DNA from: Cyclonatronum proteinivorum | GTDB taxonomy: Bacteria > Bacteroidota > Rhodothermia > Balneolales > Cyclonatronaceae | DNA length: 64,000 nucleotides | Direction: 5' to 3' | Assembly: GCF_003353065.1 (NCBI RefSeq) | Contig: NZ_CP027806.1 | Location: 310,001 to 374,000, forward strand | Shown: in pieces, positions 32,693 to 44,311 of the stretch | Layout of the letters: each line of letters opens with the position of its first letter | Position numbering within the stretch: position 1 is the first letter of the stretch | Notes under the pieces: model-generated | Databases searched by the model: none | What the model saw: the letters and a program-made list of their open reading frames with translations, nothing else | Told to the model about the DNA's origin: nothing | Translations under genes and position numbers: made by a program

Positions 32693-32732
32693 AAAGGCAG
32701 TATTTCCACACGGAAGTACTGCCTTTTGTTTT
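32693..32732 (+). terminator. glmS terminator
   Basis: Inverted repeat AAAGGCAGTA / TACTGCCTTT (32693-32702 and 32717-32726) followed by TTTGTTTTTT, 21 bases past the glmS stop. Confidence 0.85.
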
Positions 32733-32771: not shown

Positions 32772-33335
32772 ATGAAAATCATTCACATTAAAAACATGGT
32801 TTGTCCGCGATGTGTTGAAGCGGTACGGCAAACCCTCTCAGGCATGCAGCTCAAGCCCGACTCGGTTTCCTTAGGCAAAACTGTATTCAGCCAGCCTTTG
32901 CAGCCGGAACAGCTCGGTACACTCGAAGAAAAACTGAAGGCACTGGGTTTTGAACTCATCCGGCCCGAAGCGGCAGATTTGCCCGCACAAATCAGAAGCG
33001 CTGTAATCCGCTATCAACAGTTGCTGGAAGAAGGGAAAGTGAACGGCCTGTTATCCGCATTTCTCGGCTCAAAGCTCCATAAAAATTACAGCTATCTGAG
33101 CGAGCAGTTTTCCAGGGCAGGCGGCCAAACCATCACACAGTACCACGAAAAACTGCGCACCGAGCGGGCCAAAGAACTTCTTGAGCTTGGGCAGCTATCG
33201 GTAGGAGAAATTGCGCTCACACTGGGATACAGTTCGTCTCAGCATTTCTCGGGACGCTTCAGAGAACAGACCGGCTACAGTCCCACAGCCTGGCGTGAGA
33301 AGGGCGGGCCGCGCAAATCACTGGACGCGATTTAG
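32772..33335 (+). CDS. AraC-family regulator with N-terminal HMA-like metal-binding domain
   Basis: 187 residues from the ATG at 32772; the longer open frame from 32604 runs back into the glmS terminator and is not credible. Residues 1-65 resemble a heavy-metal-associated fold with the metal motif MVCPRC (CxxC at about residues 11-14) and a closing KALGFELI. Residues about 75-175 are an AraC-type double helix-turn-helix: FSRAGGQTITQYHEKLRTER, then LSVGEIALTLGYSSSQHFSG and REQTGYSPTAWRE. The next gene downstream is a copper ATPase. I infer a metal-sensing regulator, presumably of Cu(I), that reads the metal directly through the HMA-like domain. No other copper regulator is in the island. Confidence 0.85.
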   Translation: MKIIHIKNMVCPRCVEAVRQTLSGMQLKPDSVSLGKTVFSQPLQPEQLGTLEEKLKALGFELIRPEAADLPAQIRSAVIRYQQLLEEGKVNGLLSAFLGSKLHKNYSYLSEQFSRAGGQTITQYHEKLRTERAKELLELGQLSVGEIALTLGYSSSQHFSGRFREQTGYSPTAWREKGGPRKSLDAI

Positions 33336-33429
33336 CAGAGAATCCGTGCCGGTTTGGAAGTCATCACCCAAAAAATATATACAAAGTGCCGGCAATCACG
33401 AACGCCTTAACAGAACGGTATGCTTAGTT

Positions 33430-33690
33430 TTAACCCACATTATTCACAATTAAACAGAAAATATTTTCTAAATTCATGTTTATATTCTACTTAGTAAAAA
33501 CAACGATAACCCAAATTTGAGTGTGGTGTAAAGACTGCACACCGAGCGAAGCGATTCCCGCGCAGCGAAATTTCCCCGCTGGCTGCGTTGAAGCTGAAAA
33601 CTCATGCTCAGGGTACTTAGGTACCCTTCCGCTGAATTTTCAGCTTCGCCTTGCCAGCAAGAAAATTTCTTGGTGAATAATGCGGGTTAA
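33430..33690. mobile_element. MITE family 1, copy B (full form), directly upstream of copA
   Basis: 261 bases with terminal repeats TTAACCCACATTATTCAC (one mismatch from consensus) and GTGAATAATGCGGGTTAA. The right arm carries nested inverted repeats: GAAGCTGAAAA pairs with TTTTCAGCTTC around GGGTACTTAGGTACCC, and CTGGC with GCCAG outside. The element ends 18 bases before the first possible ATG of copA. The remaining 33336-33429 stretch after the regulator shows nothing recognisable. Confidence 0.9.
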
Positions 33691-33708
33691 CCCATACCTG
33701 ACTTATTT

Positions 33709-36162
33709 ATGCAAACCCCGCACAATATGGAAACAATCAAAACAGCTGACCGCATCCGGCTTGATATCAAGGGCATGAGTTGCGCGAGCTGCGTAACCGG
33801 GGTGGAGAAAGCACTCGCGCGCGTAGAAGGCGTATCAGAAGTTAGTGTAAACCTTGCCACGAATCAGGCTGAAATTGTCTGTGATGATGACCTCATCTCT
33901 TACGAAAGCCTGATTCAGGCCGTAGATGATGCGGGCTTTGAAGCGGCGCTGCCGGAATCAGGCCGTAAGAACGGAGCCGCCCATCGTCTGAAAATCAAGG
34001 GCATGAGCTGCGCAAGCTGCGTAGCAGGGGTCGAAAAAGCCATCGCCAAAGTGCCCGGCACGGGTGATGTTTCCGTAAACCTTGCGACTTCCGAAGCCCG
34101 CTTCACCCGCGATGGTGCAGATACCGAGGCGGTCATTCAGGCCATTGAGGCCGCGGGCTTTGAAGCGGAGATCATCCGTAATGATTCTGTCGCTGAGCTT
34201 TCGGCCTCAAAAACCGATCAGAGTTTTCGCCGCCGCTTCCTGATTGCCCTCCCCCTCGCGCTGCTGGTAAGCGTGATGGATATGGGACCCATGTTCATTC
34301 ACAGCTGGCACGAGGCCATTCACCCGATCCTGTTTGAGTGGAACCTTGCGCAGCTTGTGCTCACGGGCTTCATCATGTTTTATGCGGGGCGTCAGTTCTT
34401 TACCGGGGCATGGAAGGCGATCCGGCGCAAAAGCGCGGATATGAACGTGCTCGTTGCCGTCGGTACGGGGGCGGCTTTTTTGTTCAGCGGCTACGCGACT
34501 TTTTTTGGTCGCGAAGGCGCGCTGGTGGAGCCGATGGACGTGTATTTCGACACCGCGGCCGTCATTATTGCGCTGATTTTGCTGGGACGCTGGATGGAAG
34601 AGCGCGCCCGTGATAAAAGCCGCGACGCCCTGGGCGGACTCCTGAAACTAACCCCGCCCCGCGCACACCGCATTGACGCACAGGGCGAGCCGGTCACCAT
34701 CACCCTGGATCAGGTACGTACCGGCGATGAGCTCCTCGTGAAAGCCTTTGAGCAGGTTCCGGTTGACGGCGAAATCCTGAGCGGCACACCCTCTCTCGAC
34801 GAATCTATGATGACCGGCGAAAGCGTGCCCGCCGATAAACAGCCCGGCGATGCCGTAACCGGCGGCACCCGGAACACGGCGCAGTCCTTCCGGATGAAGG
34901 CCATCGCCGTGGGCAAAGAAACCGCCCTTGCCCGCCTCATTGAGGCTGTTCGGCGTGCACAGGGCTCCAAGCCGCCCATTCAGCGCCTTGTTGACAAGCT
35001 TTCCGCTGTATTTGTGCCGGTTGTAATTGTAATCGCCCTCATCACGCTTTTAGGTTGGATGTTTGTGGAAGGGAATCCTGCCAAAGCAGTAGTCAACATG
35101 GTTGCCGTGCTGATTATCGCCTGCCCCTGTGCGCTTGGACTCGCTACGCCAACCGGCATTATGGTCGGCTCGGGCCGGGCCGCTGAGAAGGGCATTCTCA
35201 TCAAAGATGCGGTTACGCTGGAAGAAGCACGCAAGGCCGATGTCATCCTTCTCGATAAAACCGGCACCCTCACTACAGGTGAAATGCAGCTGACCGGAAT
35301 CCACACGCTTTCGGATTTTTCAGAAAAGGAATTACTGCACCTGGCCGGATCTGTAGAGCAGGAATCAGACCATCCCATTGCGCAGGCAGTCGTTCGCTAT
35401 ACCAAATCGAAAGAAATAAAGCTTTCCCGCGCGGAGCAGACCGAAACGCAGGCCGGCACAGGCATTCGCGGACTCGTGGAAGGAAAGCAGGTGCAGATCG
35501 GATCCGTTGCACTTCTGAACGAAACCGGGAATGACGCCGCCATCCGTACCCTCATCAGCGACTGGCAGGAAGCCGGCCGCACGGTGCTGGTTGTGCTTAT
35601 TGACGGTACGATTGCGGGTCTTCTCAGCATTAGTGATGAGCCCCGGGAAGACGCCGCAGCATTTGTGGAACAGCTCAAAGCGCTGGACATTCTGCCCGTC
35701 ATGGTAACCGGCGATCAGGAAAAGACCGCGCGCTATGTGGCCGGAAAGCTGGGCATGGAGCAGGTCCGCTTCGGTGTAAAGCCTGACGAAAAAGCCGAAG
35801 TCGTGAAATACTATCAGCAGCAGGGCAAGCATGTAGCGATGGTCGGCGACGGCATCAACGACGCTGCAGCGCTGGTACAGGCCGATCTGGGCATCGCGCT
35901 TAGCAGCGGCACTGACCTCGCGGTTTCATCCGCTGATATCACCATTGCCGGTGCGAGTCTGGCTAAAGTAGTGGAAGCCATCACGCTTTCACGCAACGTG
36001 CTGCGGATCATACGGCAGAACCTGTTCTGGGCATTTGTGTACAACAGCGTCGGCATTCCGCTGGCCGCTTTTGGGATTCTCAGCCCGATGTTCGCTGCCC
36101 TTGCTATGGCGCTCAGCTCTGTAAGCGTGGTCAGCAACAGCCTTCGCATCCGAAAATTGTAA
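33709..36162 (+). CDS. copA: Cu(I)-translocating P1B-type ATPase CopA
   Basis: 817-residue copper exporter of the inner membrane. Two N-terminal HMA domains, each with GMSCASC (first near residues 22-28, second near 99-105), bind Cu(I). Eight membrane helices follow. The intramembrane metal site is the CPC of IIACPCALGLATPTG (near residue 470). The catalytic phosphorylation motif is DKTGTLT (near 515), the nucleotide-domain HP dipeptide is in ESDHPIAQ, and the hinge is VGDGINDA (near 712). The C-terminal helix has VYNSVGIPLAA and MALSSVSVVSNSLRIRKL, as in copper-type pumps. ATG at 33727 is an alternative start. A MITE copy lies immediately upstream, separating it from the AraC-HMA regulator. 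Confidence 0.96.
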   Translation: MQTPHNMETIKTADRIRLDIKGMSCASCVTGVEKALARVEGVSEVSVNLATNQAEIVCDDDLISYESLIQAVDDAGFEAALPESGRKNGAAHRLKIKGMSCASCVAGVEKAIAKVPGTGDVSVNLATSEARFTRDGADTEAVIQAIEAAGFEAEIIRNDSVAELSASKTDQSFRRRFLIALPLALLVSVMDMGPMFIHSWHEAIHPILFEWNLAQLVLTGFIMFYAGRQFFTGAWKAIRRKSADMNVLVAVGTGAAFLFSGYATFFGREGALVEPMDVYFDTAAVIIALILLGRWMEERARDKSRDALGGLLKLTPPRAHRIDAQGEPVTITLDQVRTGDELLVKAFEQVPVDGEILSGTPSLDESMMTGESVPADKQPGDAVTGGTRNTAQSFRMKAIAVGKETALARLIEAVRRAQGSKPPIQRLVDKLSAVFVPVVIVIALITLLGWMFVEGNPAKAVVNMVAVLIIACPCALGLATPTGIMVGSGRAAEKGILIKDAVTLEEARKADVILLDKTGTLTTGEMQLTGIHTLSDFSEKELLHLAGSVEQESDHPIAQAVVRYTKSKEIKLSRAEQTETQAGTGIRGLVEGKQVQIGSVALLNETGNDAAIRTLISDWQEAGRTVLVVLIDGTIAGLLSISDEPREDAAAFVEQLKALDILPVMVTGDQEKTARYVAGKLGMEQVRFGVKPDEKAEVVKYYQQQGKHVAMVGDGINDAAALVQADLGIALSSGTDLAVSSADITIAGASLAKVVEAITLSRNVLRIIRQNLFWAFVYNSVGIPLAAFGILSPMFAALAMALSSVSVVSNSLRIRKL

Positions 36163-36293
36163 GACAAACCCGTATATTGATCACCAAAGATTAATCAAAA
36201 CTAAAATTACCCGCATCTTGTCAGTTTAGGCTTACTTAACTATATTCGTCATTCGTTCATTGGACTCACGAATACAAATGTTAGGGATTTGCC

Positions 36294-36368
36294 ATGAGAA
36301 GGAACAAAATGACCGTCCTGAAAGTAGGGCTCGTATTCCTTGTTGTTCTGGTAATGATTGTGGGCTAA
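36294..36368 (+). CDS. Possible 24-residue single-span membrane peptide
   Basis: A short open frame between copA and the CopZ-like gene: MRRNKM, then one uninterrupted hydrophobic span of about 18 residues (TVLKVGLVFLVVLVMIVG). It has a positive N-terminus and a 19-base gap to the next gene. The shape fits small membrane peptides that accompany transporters, but a peptide this short can arise by chance and no family is recognised. Confidence 0.35.
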   Translation: MRRNKMTVLKVGLVFLVVLVMIVG

Positions 36369-36384
36369 ATAAGTCTCAGTTATT

Positions 36385-36603
36385 ATGGAAGATACAATTA
36401 ATATTCGCGTGGAAGGAATGACCTGTGATGGTTGTTCCTCCCGCCTCAAAAAACAACTCGAGAAGCACCCTCAGATTCAGAAAGCCGAAGTCGATCACGT
36501 GAATGGTATCGCGATGATTGCCGGCGAAGTAACCGAAGCCATGGTTGCAGAAATTGTGGAAGCAACTGGTTTCACCTATAAAGGCCCGGATGTAGTTAAC
36601 TGA
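36385..36603 (+). CDS. copZ: CopZ-like HMA-domain copper chaperone
   Basis: 72-residue single HMA domain with the metal-binding motif GMTCDGCSSRL (CxxC near residues 14-17) and the closing EIVEATGFTY. Such proteins carry Cu(I) in the cytoplasm to the ATPase or to a sensor. It is larger in charge variation than the HMA repeats inside CopA. It ends five bases before the cysteine-rich gene, so the two are probably translationally linked. The gene lies between copA and cusA on the same strand. Confidence 0.88.
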   Translation: MEDTINIRVEGMTCDGCSSRLKKQLEKHPQIQKAEVDHVNGIAMIAGEVTEAMVAEIVEATGFTYKGPDVVN

Positions 36604-36607
36604 TCGC

Positions 36608-37174
36608 ATGCTTCTTACCGGTCAGACATACCACCCGAAAATCAGCATCATGCTCCTTCTGAGTATGATGCTTTTTTTGCTGGCACCCGTTGGGGAAGCC
36701 GCAGCTGGTTTTTGGGGCGGAGAATGTCCGGTTGAACTGGCGCGTAAAAACACCGCAGCTGCAACACAAATGAGCTGTTGCCCGTCCGATAATCAGGAAC
36801 GTCTTCAGCCTCAGCATACGGTTCAGAACGGGTCGGTCTTTGATGGTTACCAGGCCTTCATCCCGACACAGAACGGAATGGGCTGTGATACCGCTGCAGC
36901 CTCCACATCCTGCTGCGCGGCCTGCGACTGCTGGATCGACGCCTCTGACGCTGCTGCCGCTGCCATCCCCGCTGTTGTACCAAGAACCGGTTTTGAGAAA
37001 CTACAGCTTGAAGCTCAGGTAAAGCTTCACGTATCATTCTTCCTGAACTTCGTTGCTAAGGTTACCCGTTCAGAAGCGGTCAATGAACGCCTTCAGCACG
37101 CTGATTCAAATCAAAAGCCTTCTCTCGCAGCCGCCCTTCCGCTGCGCGTAGCCTACTGCTGCTACCTCATTTGA
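36608..37174 (+). CDS. Unrecognised cysteine-rich exported protein in copper island
   Basis: 188 residues, no family recognised. A hydrophobic segment (about residues 13-33) reads as a signal peptide or anchor. Ten cysteines fall in clusters: GGECP, QMSCCPSD, GMGCD, STSCCAACDCW and the C-terminal AYCCYLI. The middle is alanine- and serine-rich (DASDAAAAAIPAV). It starts five bases after the copZ-like stop, and the cusA operon follows. Cysteine clusters plus location suggest a periplasmic metal-binding or metal-buffering role. The C-terminal third could be a second membrane-adjacent helix. The coding call rests on open length, spacing and composition. Confidence 0.65.
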   Translation: MLLTGQTYHPKISIMLLLSMMLFLLAPVGEAAAGFWGGECPVELARKNTAAATQMSCCPSDNQERLQPQHTVQNGSVFDGYQAFIPTQNGMGCDTAAASTSCCAACDCWIDASDAAAAAIPAVVPRTGFEKLQLEAQVKLHVSFFLNFVAKVTRSEAVNERLQHADSNQKPSLAAALPLRVAYCCYLI

Positions 37175-37324
37175 TATGAGAAAAGCCGGACTGCACCGCC
37201 CTCCCGCAGTCCCGATATCCCGCACAATTTCATCTTAACAGCCCGCATTCTGTCCGTCAGCTGCGGTACGCTGTTTTTATGGTGATGTGTGTGTAACGCT
37301 TTTTTCACTTCAATTTTGCAGCTT

Positions 37325-40300
37325 ATGCTTGACCGACTGATTCGTTTTTTTATTGAAAACCGGCTGATTGCCGTACTCTTGTTGCTGCTGCTCACCGGCT
37401 GGGGGCTTGCAACCTCCCCCTTCAACTGGGATCTGGGTATCTGGCCCCGAAACCCGGTCGCCGTTGACGCCATCCCCGATATCGGCGACAATCAGCAGAT
37501 CGTCTTTACCGAATGGCCCGGGCGCTCCCCGCAGGACATCGAAGACCAGATCACCTACCCGCTCACCACACAGCTCCTCGGCTTACCGGGCGTCCGGACT
37601 GTTCGCAGCAACTCCATGTTCGGCTTCTCGGCCATCAACATCATCTTTGAGGACGGGGTTGATTTCTACTGGAGCCGCGCGCGCATCCTCGAACAGCTCA
37701 GCGCGCTGCCCTCAGCACTTTTGCCGGGCGACGTTCAGCCTACGCTCGGACCCGCCGCAACTGCGCTGGGGCAGGTGATCTGGTACACCCTGCAGGGCCT
37801 CGACCCGGACGGCAATCCTGCCGGAGGCTGGGATTTGGATGAGCTCCGCAGCATTCAGGATTTTCAGGTGAAGTACGCCCTCTCCTCGGCCTCCGGCGTG
37901 GCAGAAGTCGCGAGCATTGGCGGCTTTGTGCGGGAGTATCAGGTGGATATCGACCCCGTGCGCATGCGGGAGCGCGGGGTAACCGTCACGCAGATTGCCA
38001 ACGCCGTGCGGCAGAGCAATCTCGATGTGGGCGCCCGGACCCTCGAAATGAACCGCGCGGAGTACGTGGTGCGGGGCCTCGGTTACATCCGCAGCCTGGA
38101 GGATATCGAAAACAGCGTTGTGACCGTCACCAACAATGTGCCGGTGCTGATACGGGATGTGGCGGAAGTCAGCACAGGACCCGCGCAGCGCCGGGGGATG
38201 CTTGACCTCGAAGGGGCCGAGGCCGTCGGCGGCGTAGTCGTAGCCCGTTTCGGGGAAAACCCGCTTCAGGTGATTGAAGCCGTCAAAGCCAGAATGGATG
38301 AAATTGCGCCGGGTCTGCCTGTCCGTGTGCTGGAGGATGGCACCCGGTCGCAGGTCAGCATCGTGCCGTTTTACGACCGCAGCGAGCTCATTCTCGAAAC
38401 CCTCGGTACCCTCGAACAGGCACTCAGCCTGCAAATCCTGATCACGCTCATCGTCATCATCGCGATTGTGATGCACCTGCGCGCGGCTCTGCTGGTTTCC
38501 GCGCTGATGCCGGTTGCGGTGCTCATCTCCTTCATCCTTATGAGCTGGTTCGGGGTTGAAGCCAACGTCGTAGCGCTTGCCGGTATCGCCATCTCCATCG
38601 GGACGGTGGTGGATATGGGCATCATCCTCACCGAAAACATGCTGCGGCAGCTTGAGGAGGCCAATCCCGGGGAAAGCCGGATGGAGGTCATCGCCCGTGC
38701 CGCGCAGGAAGTGAGTCCGGCCGTGGTCACCGCCCTGCTCACGACCATCATCAGCTTCCTGCCTGTATTTCTGCTGGAAGCACAGGAAGGCCGCCTGTTC
38801 GGTCCGCTGGCGTTTACCAAAACCTTTGTGCTGGTGGCGGCCCTCATCATCGTACTCACCATCATTCCTGCCTTTGCATCATGGTTGTTTACACGCAACT
38901 TTAACAGCGGTCTTCTTCGCAAATCGGGAAGCGTGCTGCTCGTCATACTTGGCATCGCGGCCTTTTGGGTGCAGCCCTGGGCTGGTTTTATCCTCCTCGG
39001 GCTGGGTATCACGGCCCTGTTGCGCACCTTCACTCCGGAGCTGTTATCCGAAAAATTCACCGGATTGGCCAACACCGTCATCATCGTGCTGGGACTTAGC
39101 TGGCTGATGTCAGACAGCTGGCTGCCCCTCGGTGCTGAAAACAGCCGTCTCCTCAACACCCTCTTTTTGGTAGCGGTGATTGCGCTGGTGCTGCTCACCT
39201 TCTGGGGCTTCATGCGCGGATATGCACGCGCGCTTCGCTTCTTTATGTACCGGAAGCCGCTTTTCTTTGTACTTCCTGCCCTTTTGCTTCTGCTGGGCGG
39301 ACTCTCCTGGCTCGGCTTCGACCGGTTGTTTCAGGCACCGGCAAGTGTGGCGGAGTCCGTTGGCTGGGATATCCGGAGCAGTAGCGGCTGGCAGTCGGCA
39401 GCGCAGACGTTTCCGGGACTGAACCGCGAGTTCATGCCGCGTCTCGATGAAGGCTCCTTCCTGCTTATGCCCACAACCATGCCGCATGCCGGTATGGCCG
39501 AAGTCGCGGAAATGGTGCAGATAATGGACATGCGCGTCGCCTCCATTCCGGAGGTCTCAGGCGTGCTGGGCAAAATCGGGCGGGTGGAGTCGGCCCTTGA
39601 TCCGGCCCCGATTTCCATGTTTGAAAATGTGGTGAACTACCTGCCGGAGTTTAAGCTCGATGACCGCGGCAGGCGCGTGCGCTTTCAGGTTGACCGCGAA
39701 GGAAACTTTGTGCGGGATGAAAACGGCGACCTCATCCCCGACCGCCGCGGACGCTTCTACCGGCAATGGCGCGATCACATCCGTTCGGTGGATGACATCT
39801 GGAACGAAGTCGTGCAGGCTGCAACCATTCCTGGCGTAACTTCTGCCCCGAAACTGCAGCCCATCGAAACCCGCATCATCATGCTGCAAACCGGCATGCG
39901 CGCCAACATCGGCATTCGCGTGAGCGGGCCGGACCTGCAAACGATAGATGATTTTTCCCGCGAACTTGAAGGGCTCGTCAGGAGTGTGGACGGTGTTCGT
40001 GCCGCATCGGTTTTCGCGGACCGGGTGGTCGGAAAGCCCTACCTCGAAATTGATCTTGACCGACACGCCCTCGCGCGGCACGGACTGACCGTACAGCAGG
40101 TGCAGGAAGTCATCTCCATCGCCATCGGCGGGATGCCGCTCACGACAACCGTGGAAGGCCGTCACCGCTACGATGTTCGGGTCCGTTACGCCCGTGAGTA
40201 CCGCGACAATCCCGACGCTCTTGCACGGGTGCTGGTGCCCGCGCCCGACGGCAGTCAGATCCCGCTGGGACAGCTCGCCGACATCCGCTTCGTGACCGGT

Positions 40301-41125
40301 CCGATGAGTATCCGGAGTGAAAACACCTTCCTGAACAGCTACGTCACCTTCGATGCCATGGCAGGCTTTTCGGCGGTTGAAGTGGCCGCCGATGTGGAGC
40401 GAAGCCTGCAGCGCAACATCCGCAACGGCAGCCTGAATGTGCCCGCAGGCGTCAGTTTCGTGATTGAAGGCGAGTTCCGGAATCAGCAGCGGGCCGCTCA
40501 GCGGCTGCTGGTAATCATACCGGTGACCCTGCTGCTCATCTTCCTGCTCATTTATTTTCAGTTCCGTTCTGCCACGCAAACGGGCATCATTTTCAGCAGC
40601 ATTGCGCTGGTCTGGGCAGGAGGGTTTCTCATGCTCTGGCTCTGGGCGCAGCCCTGGTTTATGAACTTCAGCCTGTTTGGGGCGGACATCCGGGCGCTGT
40701 TCGGCATGGGAACCGTGAACCTGAGCGTGGCGGTCTGGGTCGGCTTCCTCGCCCTGTTCGGCATTGGCGTGGATGACGGCGTGGTGCAGGCGACCTACCT
40801 GCGGCAATTTTTTGCGCGGGAGCGTCCGCAGGGCCGGGCCGCCATCATCGAAACCGCCATCAAAGCGGGCCTGCGCCGGGTGCGTCCCTGCCTGATGACG
40901 ACCGCGACAACCCTGCTCGCACTGCTGCCCATTCTCACCTCACCGGGACGTGGCTCCGAAATCATGACGCCCATGGCCATCCCGCTGTTCGGGGGCGTGC
41001 TCTTCCTGCTGCTCTCACTCTTTCTCGTGCCCATCCTCTACGCGATGGTTGCCGAACACCGGCCACAGCTTTTCGCGGCCCCTTCCCCCGAAACCCCACA
41101 ACTGAAGGAAACTGACCATGCGTAA
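37325..41125 (+). CDS. cusA: CusA/CzcA-type heavy-metal RND efflux pump
   Basis: Proton-driven inner-membrane pump of a tripartite copper/silver-type efflux system. The start is set at 37325 (MLDRLIRFF), 12 residues inside the longest frame. 1266 residues against about 1040-1050 for enterobacterial CusA. Signatures: AVDAIPDIGDNQQIVFTEWP, DIEDQITYPL, MFGFSAINIIFEDGVDFYW, TALGQVIWYTL. A methionine-rich periplasmic cleft segment (LLMPTTMPHAGMAEVAEM to DPAPISMFENVVNYLPEF) corresponds to the copper-relay region. The extra length is mostly a hydrophobic insert at about residues 525-670 containing several additional predicted membrane helices. It overlaps the TolC gene by eight bases. Confidence 0.94.
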   Translation: MLDRLIRFFIENRLIAVLLLLLLTGWGLATSPFNWDLGIWPRNPVAVDAIPDIGDNQQIVFTEWPGRSPQDIEDQITYPLTTQLLGLPGVRTVRSNSMFGFSAINIIFEDGVDFYWSRARILEQLSALPSALLPGDVQPTLGPAATALGQVIWYTLQGLDPDGNPAGGWDLDELRSIQDFQVKYALSSASGVAEVASIGGFVREYQVDIDPVRMRERGVTVTQIANAVRQSNLDVGARTLEMNRAEYVVRGLGYIRSLEDIENSVVTVTNNVPVLIRDVAEVSTGPAQRRGMLDLEGAEAVGGVVVARFGENPLQVIEAVKARMDEIAPGLPVRVLEDGTRSQVSIVPFYDRSELILETLGTLEQALSLQILITLIVIIAIVMHLRAALLVSALMPVAVLISFILMSWFGVEANVVALAGIAISIGTVVDMGIILTENMLRQLEEANPGESRMEVIARAAQEVSPAVVTALLTTIISFLPVFLLEAQEGRLFGPLAFTKTFVLVAALIIVLTIIPAFASWLFTRNFNSGLLRKSGSVLLVILGIAAFWVQPWAGFILLGLGITALLRTFTPELLSEKFTGLANTVIIVLGLSWLMSDSWLPLGAENSRLLNTLFLVAVIALVLLTFWGFMRGYARALRFFMYRKPLFFVLPALLLLLGGLSWLGFDRLFQAPASVAESVGWDIRSSSGWQSAAQTFPGLNREFMPRLDEGSFLLMPTTMPHAGMAEVAEMVQIMDMRVASIPEVSGVLGKIGRVESALDPAPISMFENVVNYLPEFKLDDRGRRVRFQVDREGNFVRDENGDLIPDRRGRFYRQWRDHIRSVDDIWNEVVQAATIPGVTSAPKLQPIETRIIMLQTGMRANIGIRVSGPDLQTIDDFSRELEGLVRSVDGVRAASVFADRVVGKPYLEIDLDRHALARHGLTVQQVQEVISIAIGGMPLTTTVEGRHRYDVRVRYAREYRDNPDALARVLVPAPDGSQIPLGQLADIRFVTGPMSIRSENTFLNSYVTFDAMAGFSAVEVAADVERSLQRNIRNGSLNVPAGVSFVIEGEFRNQQRAAQRLLVIIPVTLLLIFLLIYFQFRSATQTGIIFSSIALVWAGGFLMLWLWAQPWFMNFSLFGADIRALFGMGTVNLSVAVWVGFLALFGIGVDDGVVQATYLRQFFARERPQGRAAIIETAIKAGLRRVRPCLMTTATTLLALLPILTSPGRGSEIMTPMAIPLFGGVLFLLLSLFLVPILYAMVAEHRPQLFAAPSPETPQLKETDHA

Positions 41126-42482
41126 ATCAGCCAACGTCAACATCAAAAACAACCGGCATAAGCTGCGTAAAGGCAGGATGTTTTTTTGCAGGATGATGAT
41201 GAGCTTCCTGCTCCTGTCCGGGCTTCTTGCTGCGGGTCAGCTAACGTCGGTTCAGGCGCAGATTGCAGCGCCCGGCGTCCCTGCCGAGCTTGAGGCGCTC
41301 ATGCTCGAAGCCCTCGGGTTTAGTCCGGTGCTGGCCGTGAATCAGGCACAGATTGAAGCGCAGCAGGCGCGTGAACAGGAAGTCCGCTCCCTGCCCGATC
41401 CCGAGATTAACCTGGGCTATTTCCTCAATCCCGCCGAAAGCAGCACTGTACCGGGGCGCTTCACGCTTTCAGCCATGCAGATGTTTCCGTGGTTTGGCTA
41501 CTACACGGCAGCGCAACAGCAGCAGCGTGAACTGAGCGGCGCAGAAGAACAACGCTATTTCGAAACCGCACTGGGCCTGATCCTCGAGGTGCAGCTTGCC
41601 TGGCTTGACCTTGCAGAGAACCGCTACCGGCAAGATTTGCTACAGGAAGAAGTCGCCCTGCTGGAAGAGCTTGAATCCTGGCTGGCAGCCCGGCATGAAA
41701 GCGGTCTTGCCCGGCAGTCCGAGCGTATCGCGCTGCGTATGGAGCGCAGCCGGCTTCGGACGCAGCTTCAAAATCTTGAAGAAGCCCGTCATCCGATGTA
41801 TGTCCGGCTCAACAGCCTGCTCAGCCGTGACCCGGATAGCGAACTGACGCTCACAGTTGAAGTGCCGGAGCGGGAACTTCCTGCGGCTTGGGAGCACATC
41901 ACCCGAAACCTTGCGGAGAACCGGCCGGAACTGCAGCTGTATGTGCAGCAAAGCCGGGCGCTAAAGCAGGCCGCAGAGCAAAACCGGCTGATGGGCATGC
42001 CCGAATTTGGTCTGGGTTTTGAAGTGATGGGCCGCGATTACGGCACCATGAACATGATGCCGTCCATGAACGAATCCTTCTTTCTGATGGCAAGCGTGCG
42101 GGTACCACTGTGGCGTGGCAAGTATGACGGCCGCCGCGACGCCATTGAAGCCGGGAGGCGGGCAACCGAATACAGCCGTGAGGCGGCCCTGCTGCGCATC
42201 CGCTCTGAGGCGGAGAAGCAGCTCAATACCTGGCGGGAAGCCCGTCGGGAGATGGCGCTCTACGACGAGGAGCTTCTCACCGGTTTTTCGCAGCTGTACA
42301 GCCTGGAACTCGAGAGCTATGCGGCATCAGATACCGGGTTCCGTGAGCTGCTGCAGCTCCGCCGGGAATGGCTGGATGCCCGGCAGTCGCGGCTGCAGGC
42401 ATGGTTCAGGGCCGAACGCGAACTCGCCCGTATCGAGCGCGAAACCGGCGCATGGCTTCCGCTTGTCCGGGATCTGCGCTAA
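41118..42482 (+). CDS. TolC-family outer membrane efflux protein (CusC role)
   Basis: 454 residues with an N-terminal hydrophobic export signal (about 25-48, ending VQAQ) after a basic leader; an internal ATG (MFFCRMMMSFLL) is an alternative start. Two long helical repeats of the TolC type follow: VNQAQIEAQQAREQEVRSLPDP, QVQLAWLDLAENRYRQDLLQEEV, LKQAAEQNRLMGMPEFGLGFEVMG and LRREWLDARQSRLQAWFRAERELARIE. It forms the outer-membrane channel of the tripartite pump with CusA (upstream, overlapping) and the CusB-type adaptor (57 bases downstream). Confidence 0.9.
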   Translation: MRKSANVNIKNNRHKLRKGRMFFCRMMMSFLLLSGLLAAGQLTSVQAQIAAPGVPAELEALMLEALGFSPVLAVNQAQIEAQQAREQEVRSLPDPEINLGYFLNPAESSTVPGRFTLSAMQMFPWFGYYTAAQQQQRELSGAEEQRYFETALGLILEVQLAWLDLAENRYRQDLLQEEVALLEELESWLAARHESGLARQSERIALRMERSRLRTQLQNLEEARHPMYVRLNSLLSRDPDSELTLTVEVPERELPAAWEHITRNLAENRPELQLYVQQSRALKQAAEQNRLMGMPEFGLGFEVMGRDYGTMNMMPSMNESFFLMASVRVPLWRGKYDGRRDAIEAGRRATEYSREAALLRIRSEAEKQLNTWREARREMALYDEELLTGFSQLYSLELESYAASDTGFRELLQLRREWLDARQSRLQAWFRAERELARIERETGAWLPLVRDLR

Positions 42483-42538
42483 GTCTCATAAGCCTTTACT
42501 ACTGATTTTATTACGATAACCCTTTGATTTTTTGAACC

Positions 42539-44311
42539 ATGGAATGGAATAAAAAAACTTTGCTGCTGCTCAGCGCTGTGCTAGTTACCGGCGTATTTTT
42601 GGGATGGCTGCTGTTTGGCGGCAGTCATGGAGATCACAACGGACATGCGCATGTACATCACGATCATGCGCACAATCACGACCATGCAAACGGGGAGGAG
42701 GCCGGGGAAGAAACGATCTGGACCTGCTCCATGCACCCGGCCATCCGTGAAGATCAGTTTGGCCTGTGTCCGATCTGCGCCATGGACCTGATTCCCGCCT
42801 CTGCCGATGACGGCGGCGATTTCGAACTCTCGATGAGCGAGGCCGCCGTTCATCTCGCCGGAATCCGCACCACGGAAGTGATGCTGGCACAGCCGGTGCG
42901 AGAGCTGCGGCTGCCCGGTCGCGTGGTTCCGGATGAACGGCGCCTGCACCGCCTGAGCGCGCATTTCCCGGGGCGCATCACCTACCTGCGGACTACAGAA
43001 ACCGGTGCACAAATCAACCGCGGCGACCTGATCGCACGGGTCTATGCCCCTGAGCTTGTAAGTGCACAGCAGGAGCTGCTTGAAGCCAAACGCCTGGAAG
43101 CACAGCATCCCGAACTGCTGCGCGCGGCAAGGGCGCGGCTGCTGCAGTGGGAAATCTCCGAGAGCCAAATCGACGCCATTCTCGAAAGCGGCAGCGTGCG
43201 GCAGGAGCTCGAAATCTTCGCGCCGGTCAGCGGTATTTTGATGCGCCGCAATGTGGAGCAGGGTGCTTACGTCAGTCAGGGAACCGTCCTGCTTGAGCTC
43301 GCCGATCTCTCCCGCGTCTGGCTGCGCTTCGAAGCCTGGGAAGAAGACCTCGGCTGGCTGCGTACCGGCACTGAAGTCACCTTCAGCACGCGCTCGCAGC
43401 CCGGTCGCGAACACCGCGCGGTCGTTACCTTTATTGATCCGCTCGTTGATGCCGCGACCCGCACAGCCGGGGTCCGGGCCGAAATGGCCAACGCGGACGG
43501 CGCCCTTCGCCCCGGTCAGCTGCTTACCGGCACGCTGCGCGTAACGCAGTCTGAGGCGGCCCTCATGGTGCCCGCAAGCGCCGTGATGTGGACCGGTCCG
43601 CGCTCGGTCGTTTTTGTGGAAGATACCGATGCCGAAACCCCGCGCTTTGAAAGCCGCGAAGTAACCCTCGGCAAGCGCGCCGGTGATTTCTTTGTGATTG
43701 AAGACGGTCTTGAAGCCGGTGAGCGCGTTGTGTTCAGCGGCGCGTTTAAACTCGACAGCGCCTTTCAGCTGGCCGACCGCTTCAGCATGATGAACCGCGG
43801 TCCGGGCCTGCAGCCCGTGCGTCAGGGGCACGGCGACCATGCCGAAGTACGCCGCTTCCGGGATGTGCCCGAAGCCTTCCGCTTGTCGCTCACGCAGCTC
43901 ACCCGCAGCTACCTCGAAGGCAAAGAAGCCTACGTCGAGTCAGACTTTACCGGCTCAGTGCGGGCCTTCGAAACCTTTCAGCAGCAGCTTCAGGAAACCG
44001 AACGCGCGCAGCTTCCGGCAGATATGGTGCATACCTGGCGGCAGCTCTGGCGTACCCTCGATGCGCATGTTAACCTGCTGCTCGCCGCCGGCGATATCGA
44101 AGAAGGCCGTGCACAGTTCCGGCACCTCTCCGACGGCATGGTCGAAGCCGTCCGGCGTTTCGGCGTCGAAGGGGTCGTGTACCATCAGTACTGCCCTATG
44201 GCCTTCAACGACGAAGGCGGACACTGGCTCAGCGCCGAGGAGCCCATCATGAACCCCTACCTCCCCGAAATTATGCTCATGTGCGGGGATGTGATTGCGC
44301 GTATTGAGTAG
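42539..44311 (+). CDS. cusB: CusB-type periplasmic adaptor with heavy-metal-binding and DUF3347 domains
   Basis: 590-residue membrane-fusion protein. An N-terminal membrane anchor (about 6-26) is followed by a histidine-rich linker (about 30-50) and a heavy-metal-binding domain TWTCSMHP/CPICAMDL type, here WTCSMHPAIREDQFGLCPIC (about 60-85). The adaptor core comprises the barrel-sandwich segments SAHFPGRITYLRTTETGAQI and EIFAPVSGILMRRNVEQGAYV, with a long alpha hairpin between, then the beta barrel and the membrane-proximal domain to about residue 420. The C-terminal about 155 residues are a DUF3347-type domain with YCPMAFNDEGGHWLS. Both extra domains fit metal delivery to the pump. Confidence 0.93.
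   Translation: MEWNKKTLLLLSAVLVTGVFLGWLLFGGSHGDHNGHAHVHHDHAHNHDHANGEEAGEETIWTCSMHPAIREDQFGLCPICAMDLIPASADDGGDFELSMSEAAVHLAGIRTTEVMLAQPVRELRLPGRVVPDERRLHRLSAHFPGRITYLRTTETGAQINRGDLIARVYAPELVSAQQELLEAKRLEAQHPELLRAARARLLQWEISESQIDAILESGSVRQELEIFAPVSGILMRRNVEQGAYVSQGTVLLELADLSRVWLRFEAWEEDLGWLRTGTEVTFSTRSQPGREHRAVVTFIDPLVDAATRTAGVRAEMANADGALRPGQLLTGTLRVTQSEAALMVPASAVMWTGPRSVVFVEDTDAETPRFESREVTLGKRAGDFFVIEDGLEAGERVVFSGAFKLDSAFQLADRFSMMNRGPGLQPVRQGHGDHAEVRRFRDVPEAFRLSLTQLTRSYLEGKEAYVESDFTGSVRAFETFQQQLQETERAQLPADMVHTWRQLWRTLDAHVNLLLAAGDIEEGRAQFRHLSDGMVEAVRRFGVEGVVYHQYCPMAFNDEGGHWLSAEEPIMNPYLPEIMLMCGDVIARIE

Follow-up and report, generated by a model that had tools for sequence, protein, structure and literature searches.

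A 187-aa protein encoded next to copA in Cyclonatronum proteinivorum belongs to a phylum-wide, uncharacterised Bacteroidota metalloregulator variant in which an HMA head is joined to an AraC tail. The gene lies in a 64,000-nucleotide stretch of DNA (hereafter the window), the whole of which is carried by a complete 4.29-Mb chromosome. We consider it likely that the protein is a one-component sensor of Cu(I), and possibly of Ag(I), that turns on copA. We observed homology and fold of the HMA type, an invariant CxxC pair, an operator that tracks copA, its promoter geometry, and operators specific to the branches of the family.

Gene content and setting of the locus

Every gene listed in the preliminary description of this DNA is present, all on one strand (+) and in the order that it gave: the gene encoding the AraC-HMA regulator (32772..33335), copA (33709..36162), a 24-aa open reading frame (ORF; 36294..36368), a copZ-like gene encoding a 72-aa HMA chaperone (36385..36603; PF00403, E=2.4e-12), a gene for a cysteine-rich exported protein (36608..37174), cusA (37326..41125), a gene for a TolC-like outer membrane efflux protein (OEP; 41118..42482, domain match), and a cusB-like adaptor gene whose product has HMBD and DUF3347 domains (42539..44311, domain matches). 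By domain and TIGR01511 matches, the copA product is a Cu(I) P1B-1 ATPase; it has two HMA domains, and its TIGR01511 (Cu-ATPase) score was 562.5, the cut-off being 397. The cusA-family RND permease scored 754.5 against the TIGR00914 cut-off of 701. The order regulator-copA-24-aa ORF-copZ-cysteine-rich gene-cusA-tolC-cusB is kept in the nearest relatives (G005, G002, and G004), with the comparison for G002 ending where its contig stops inside cusA.

The upstream neighbor of the regulator gene was glmS in 19 related loci examined. The locus is therefore resident and not a mobile island, and the term "island" formerly applied to it, which implies acquisition, should be dropped. An intrinsic-terminator-like hairpin (32693..32726, + strand; 15 pairs, then a T run) occupies the gap between glmS and the regulator gene, and similar hairpins 3' of glmS are visible in four other loci (L036-L039). 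At two loci, L043 (in G006) and L053 (in G008), the regulator is retained at glmS and copA is not adjacent.

The cysteine-rich exported protein (36608-37174) that had been singled out as unrecognised is real and conserved in the genus, including a C-terminal C-[CST]-[YF]-L-I motif, and it has no significant match in Pfam or NCBIfam. In the window and in L036, L037, L038, and L040, this protein is some 180 aa long and contains CCP or CC as well as a CxxCxC-type motif. Other exported cysteine-containing proteins come after copA in other families.

The 24-aa ORF encodes a single-pass membrane micropeptide with the consensus M(K/R)NWKxxxFK...IVxFTG (window; also L329-L347). All copies read had exactly 24 codons and differed chiefly at third codon positions. 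At E<=5e-6, 33 of the 35 genomes from the order had the ORF; outside the order, matches fell to noise level. The micropeptide was considered as a CopA partner when all 20 of the initial 20 matches were in copper loci, and this role was rejected when a phylum search returned mostly glmS-only loci. Among 19 further loci, at least 15 had it directly 3' of glmS and had no copper gene in the vicinity. A gene found mostly after glmS without copper genes is therefore outside the copper system. Thus, the micro-membrane peptide proposed earlier is a genuine, conserved ORF, but its assignment to copper fails, since it is a glmS-locus gene; in the lineage of the window, the regulator-copA pair sits between glmS and the micropeptide gene.

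The regulator has an HMA-like head and an AraC-type tail

The preliminary description had called the first residues of the regulator HMA-like and had named structure prediction as a check. For residues 1-66 (32772..32969, + strand), AlphaFold2 with a 53-sequence alignment returned a beta-alpha-beta-beta-alpha-beta model with a pLDDT of 94, in which C11 and C14 open helix 1. Foldseek placed this model among the HMA domains of ATP7B, HMA7, CopA, CsoZ, CopZ, and Atx1 with probabilities of 0.96-0.99; the E-values were modest (0.03-0.12), as one would expect with 66 residues. A profile of the head family compared with copper HMA domains in the PDB gave E=1e-15 for ATP7B, 2e-6 for CopA, and 1e-4 for CopZ.

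The regulator of the window fell below the threshold for the Pfam HMA family (PF00403; 12.1 bits against a cut-off of 24.8, E=0.27), and only 6 of 65 relatives matched that family at E<=0.01 (best 1.6e-5). We therefore set aside the single-sequence Pfam match, which was not significant, and used the profile and fold tests in its place. The profile value for ATP7B supports HMA homology despite the lack of single-sequence Pfam membership, and the head of 32772-33335 is an HMA domain by modeled fold and by sequence homology, as the preliminary description had suggested.

The CPRC codons (32802..32813, + strand) specify C11 and C14, the sole cysteines of the 187-aa protein. Both are invariant across 65 aligned members of the family with CxxC, as are N8, M9, V10, G35, G59, and F60. 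From this invariance, and without binding data, we infer that C11 and C14 bind a soft metal and form a Cu(I) site.

The C-terminal part of the protein contains an AraC-type double helix-turn-helix (HTH; residues 101-176; 33072..33299, + strand). PF12833 matched with 70.2 bits against a curated cut-off of 33.6 (E=1.9e-19), all 65 of 65 relatives met the double-HTH criterion (PF12833/PF00165), and the best Foldseek matches of the C-terminal half were AraC-family DNA-binding domains.

A predicted 21-bp direct-repeat operator precedes copA

Between the regulator stop codon and copA lies a predicted operator that is new here, a 21-bp direct repeat (CACCCAAAAAATATATACAAAG...CAATCACGAACGCC; 33365..33409, + strand) supported by an EM motif and a spacing test. 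Motif analysis placed its first half-site at 33374..33385 (+) and, together with promoter geometry, its second at 33395..33406 (+), over the -33 position. The operator was present in 42 of 53 relatives, and shuffles gave no comparable score; the other 11 of the 53 same-strand loci had no clear operator. Of the 53 non-redundant Cu loci, 35 had two copies of T[AG][TC]A[AC] at a 21-bp spacing; in 200 dinucleotide shuffles the mean was 1.3 loci and the maximum 5. At spacings other than 21 bp, such pairs showed no excess. The 36-bp EM motif reached a log-likelihood of 375.7, as against 106-122 in shuffled sets, with a score of at least 15 in 72% of the 53 loci and in none of the shuffles. Half-site 2 of the window itself (CGAACG) is a weak consensus match; the copA site is the sole strong operator in its own genome (E=0.003, with the next site at 0.47).

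The operator follows copA when the two genes are linked, divergent, or unlinked. Two comparisons used loci kept out of motif training. In the first, with regulator and copA divergent, the site lay upstream of copA and in copA orientation at six of seven loci. In the second, with copA on a separate contig, the top site of the genome was 17 bp (G013), 24 bp (G042), or 63 bp (G006) upstream of copA, with G013 and G042 being close kin of the motif-training genomes. The operator scan of G008, which has the regulator and no copA in view, gave chance matches inside genes only and was uninformative. In the window we saw no operator ahead of the regulator gene, where glmS is followed by a terminator. 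That the regulator controls copA is inferred from this co-occurrence, there being no binding data.

Of 47 loci, 19 had TAnnTT 26 or 27 nt past the start of half-site 2; the figure for other offsets was 0.35 each. The -7 consensus of Bacteroidota is TAnnTTTG, so that an element at this offset puts half-site 2 on -33. In the window, the -7-like element TAGTTTTA (33425..33432, + strand) has an offset of 26. On this predicted geometry, half-site 2 would be where it is expected for a class II activator.

The -7-like element overlaps the start of a MITE-like element (33430..33690, + strand) of about 260 bp between the regulator and copA, which had been overlooked in the preliminary description. It lies between the operator and copA and is not part of the switch. 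The element ends in imperfect inverted repeats of 25 nt and has a palindrome inside, and the chromosome holds about 40 copies of about 260 bp that are 77-90% identical. The nearest relative (L036) has a regulator-copA gap of 114 bp without the element; insertion would have produced a longer copA leader and retained the operator.

The same sensor and operator could in principle serve a repressor, with the apo-regulator covering -33 and blocking copA until Cu(I) releases it. We judge this unlikely. The operator overlaps -33, where a bound protein could block polymerase, and most known cytoplasmic copper sensors (CsoR, CopY, and archaeal CopR types) leave DNA upon metal binding. For CopR, such release with metal is documented (PMC7830388). 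In the present loci, however, the half-site replaces the -33 consensus instead of accompanying one. As a matter of general knowledge, moreover, most AraC-family proteins whose direct repeats adjoin the core promoter act as activators, and activation of copA remains the reading that we prefer.

Spread and branches of the family

The family alignment matched in 257 of 394 sampled Bacteroidota genomes at E<=1e-10, a threshold at which the weaker matches may include ordinary AraC proteins. A scan of named genomes with the single regulator protein gave no matches; the alignment-based scan gave at least 552 confirmed loci, including ones in Flavobacterium, Hymenobacter, Prevotella, Bacteroides, Dysgonomonas, and Pedobacter. 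The fusion adjoins copA across Bacteroidota, which answers the genome survey suggested in the preliminary description. Plasmid records name family members just "AraC family transcriptional regulator." Among the matches listed were single metagenome genomes labeled Woeseia, Pseudomonadales, and Ignavibacteria. Of the loci in the genomes labeled Woeseia and Pseudomonadales (L119 and L148), L119 retains the copA operator (score 23.0), which suggests transfer or a binning error.

An order-level census comprised 85 proteins, 63 with CxxC and 22 without. A P1B ATPase was encoded within 3 kb of 50 of the 63 CxxC proteins, compared with none of the 22 others, seven of which sit at contig edges. When neighbors were restricted to the same strand and to 700 bp or less, CxRC proteins had a Cu-type ATPase neighbor in 22 out of 22 cases and CxHC proteins had a Zn/Cd-type ATPase neighbor in 11 out of 11. 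Representative CSHC neighbors scored higher with TIGR01512 (Cd family) than with TIGR01511 (Cu), and representative same-strand CxRC neighbors scored higher with TIGR01511. In the Zn branch the repeat differs (TGCAC...TGCAA), with the spacing again 21 bp. At HTH positions 107 and 156, S is commonest in the Cu branch and Q was present in all eight Zn-branch proteins compared (S107Q and S156Q).

On the tree, a single change explains the CxHC/Zn label, and two to three changes explain loss of CxxC. We therefore did not retain CxxC loss versus ATPase adjacency as independent evidence; with so few evolutionary events, the covariation of metal class and CxxC is not statistically independent, and it fits the model without proving it.

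The CSHC branch beside Zn/Cd ATPases includes L051, L052, L057-L060, L187, L194, L201, and L202, and some CSHC loci also have a cation diffusion facilitator. A further branch with MVSLRC, in which the first cysteine is lost, includes L054, L056, L061-L064, L069, L070, and L073. Its members are often tandem paralogues and are often close to CheB/CheR-like and response-regulator genes.

Could the regulator control copA without sensing metal, its head docking CopZ or CopA or dimerising, and some other signal being read? HMA folds also act as protein-protein modules, and one whole clade of the family functions without the CxxC pair. That clade, however, is the one with no member (0 of 22) within 3 kb of a metal ATPase, whereas in the 65 aligned CxxC members C11 and C14 never vary, no other cysteine is available in the protein of the window, and the residues between the two cysteines vary with the metal class of the neighboring ATPase. 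We find this explanation very improbable.

Because copper pumps lie beside the regulator and a matching DNA site immediately precedes the pump gene, direct reading of copper by this switch is probable. Further support for the direct sensing proposed in the preliminary description comes from the operator and from the Zn sister clade, with metal binding itself still an inference.

Other copper regulators in the genome

CsoR, CueR, and CopY had been reported as absent from the window, and no ligand-bearing copy of any of them was found in the whole genome. There was no PF02583 match for CsoR. The two MerR-like matches genome-wide were both unlike CueR, one being cysteine-free and the other a DNA methyltransferase fusion. 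No BlaI-type protein in the genome had the CxCxxxxCxC motif of CopY: the strong BlaI-type match has no cysteine and adjoins a BlaR1-like gene, and the second match was marginal and not a CopY. In Bizionia, a Bacteroidota genus, the published candidates for copper regulators are MerR, CopY-like, ArsR, and two-component proteins; AraC goes unmentioned, and the authors pointed out that their MerR and CopY-like candidates are without copper-binding sites (PMC11213822). A rival reading, in which copper control rests mainly on another system, such as a CusRS-like pair, with the regulator a minor or constitutive helper, is left some room by our genome search, which omitted two-component systems (CusR-type), and by the two-component and ArsR-type copper regulators that the Bizionia authors propose (PMC11213822), but we give it hardly any credence, as the copA site is the operator of the regulator family itself, judging by co-occurrence at held-out and unlinked loci, and CsoR, CueR, and CopY are absent or ligand-less in this genome.

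Proposed switch and relation to known systems

In the activator model that we favor, the HMA head would take Cu(I) at C11 and C14, perhaps passed on by the CopZ-like chaperone, and the bound Cu(I) would switch the AraC tail. The tail would bind both direct half-sites, which lie ahead of copA at 21-bp spacing; half-site 2 is over -33, and there the metal-loaded regulator would recruit RNA polymerase and turn copA on. The downstream copZ, cysteine-rich gene, and cusA-tolC-cusB would be switched on along with it. Without metal-binding or expression data, binding of Cu(I), metal-dependent activation and the direction of the switch, hand-over from CopZ, and a single transcript are inferred, and the distal cus genes are tied to the copA promoter by gene order alone.

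The nearest concept is archaeal CopR. CopR/CopT proteins, such as PF0739 of Pyrococcus furiosus, are one-component copper sensors, as is proposed for the regulator here, and combine a DNA-binding domain with a small soft-metal domain and are encoded beside copA (PMC7830388). They differ in having an Lrp-type HTH, a C-terminal TRASH metal domain, an octameric form, and a semi-palindromic site (PMC7830388). By contrast, the regulator described here has an AraC tail, an N-terminal HMA head, and a 21-bp direct repeat. E. coli AraC, MarA, and SoxS share the double HTH and, if our prediction is right, the direct-repeat operator abutting the core promoter but have no HMA head, and the effector here would be a cysteine-held metal. 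In E. coli Ada, too, a metal-cysteine domain is joined to an AraC-type tail, but what that protein reads is methyl damage to DNA. CueR (MerR family) and CsoR sense cytoplasmic Cu(I) and control copA, as we propose here, although their folds and ligands are unrelated to those of the AraC-HMA protein and neither has a ligand-bearing form in this genome. CopZ/Atx1 and the HMA domains of Cu-ATPases share the fold and the CxxC position of the head, but they are chaperones or ATPase domains without a fused DNA-binding domain, and they have GMTCxxC where the regulator head has NMVCxRC.

One-component metal sensors are a known kind of regulator. The AraC-HMA architecture is undescribed in the literature searched: no publication dealing with a copper regulator of this AraC-HMA type came to light, although subscription journals were outside the scope of the search and the result is not proof of absence. 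We lean toward the view that the family is an undescribed class of metal sensors, widespread in Bacteroidota, that arose by an HMA-AraC fusion and then gave rise to a Cu(I) branch with CxRC, a Zn/Cd branch with CSHC and a separate operator code, and a branch whose metal site was lost in favor of another function. The transcription factor may receive its metal from the chaperone through ligand exchange of the kind that operates between Atx1-like chaperones and ATPases.

Cytoplasmic copper sensing in Bacteroidota has so far been poorly assigned. Because the regulator is conserved and its operator visible, the proposal is directly testable, and because databases give just "AraC family transcriptional regulator," many copA neighbors could be re-annotated. 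Matched changes in the residues between the cysteines, in the HTH, and in the operator make the Cu and Zn branches a natural pair for examining the joint evolution of metal preference and DNA preference.
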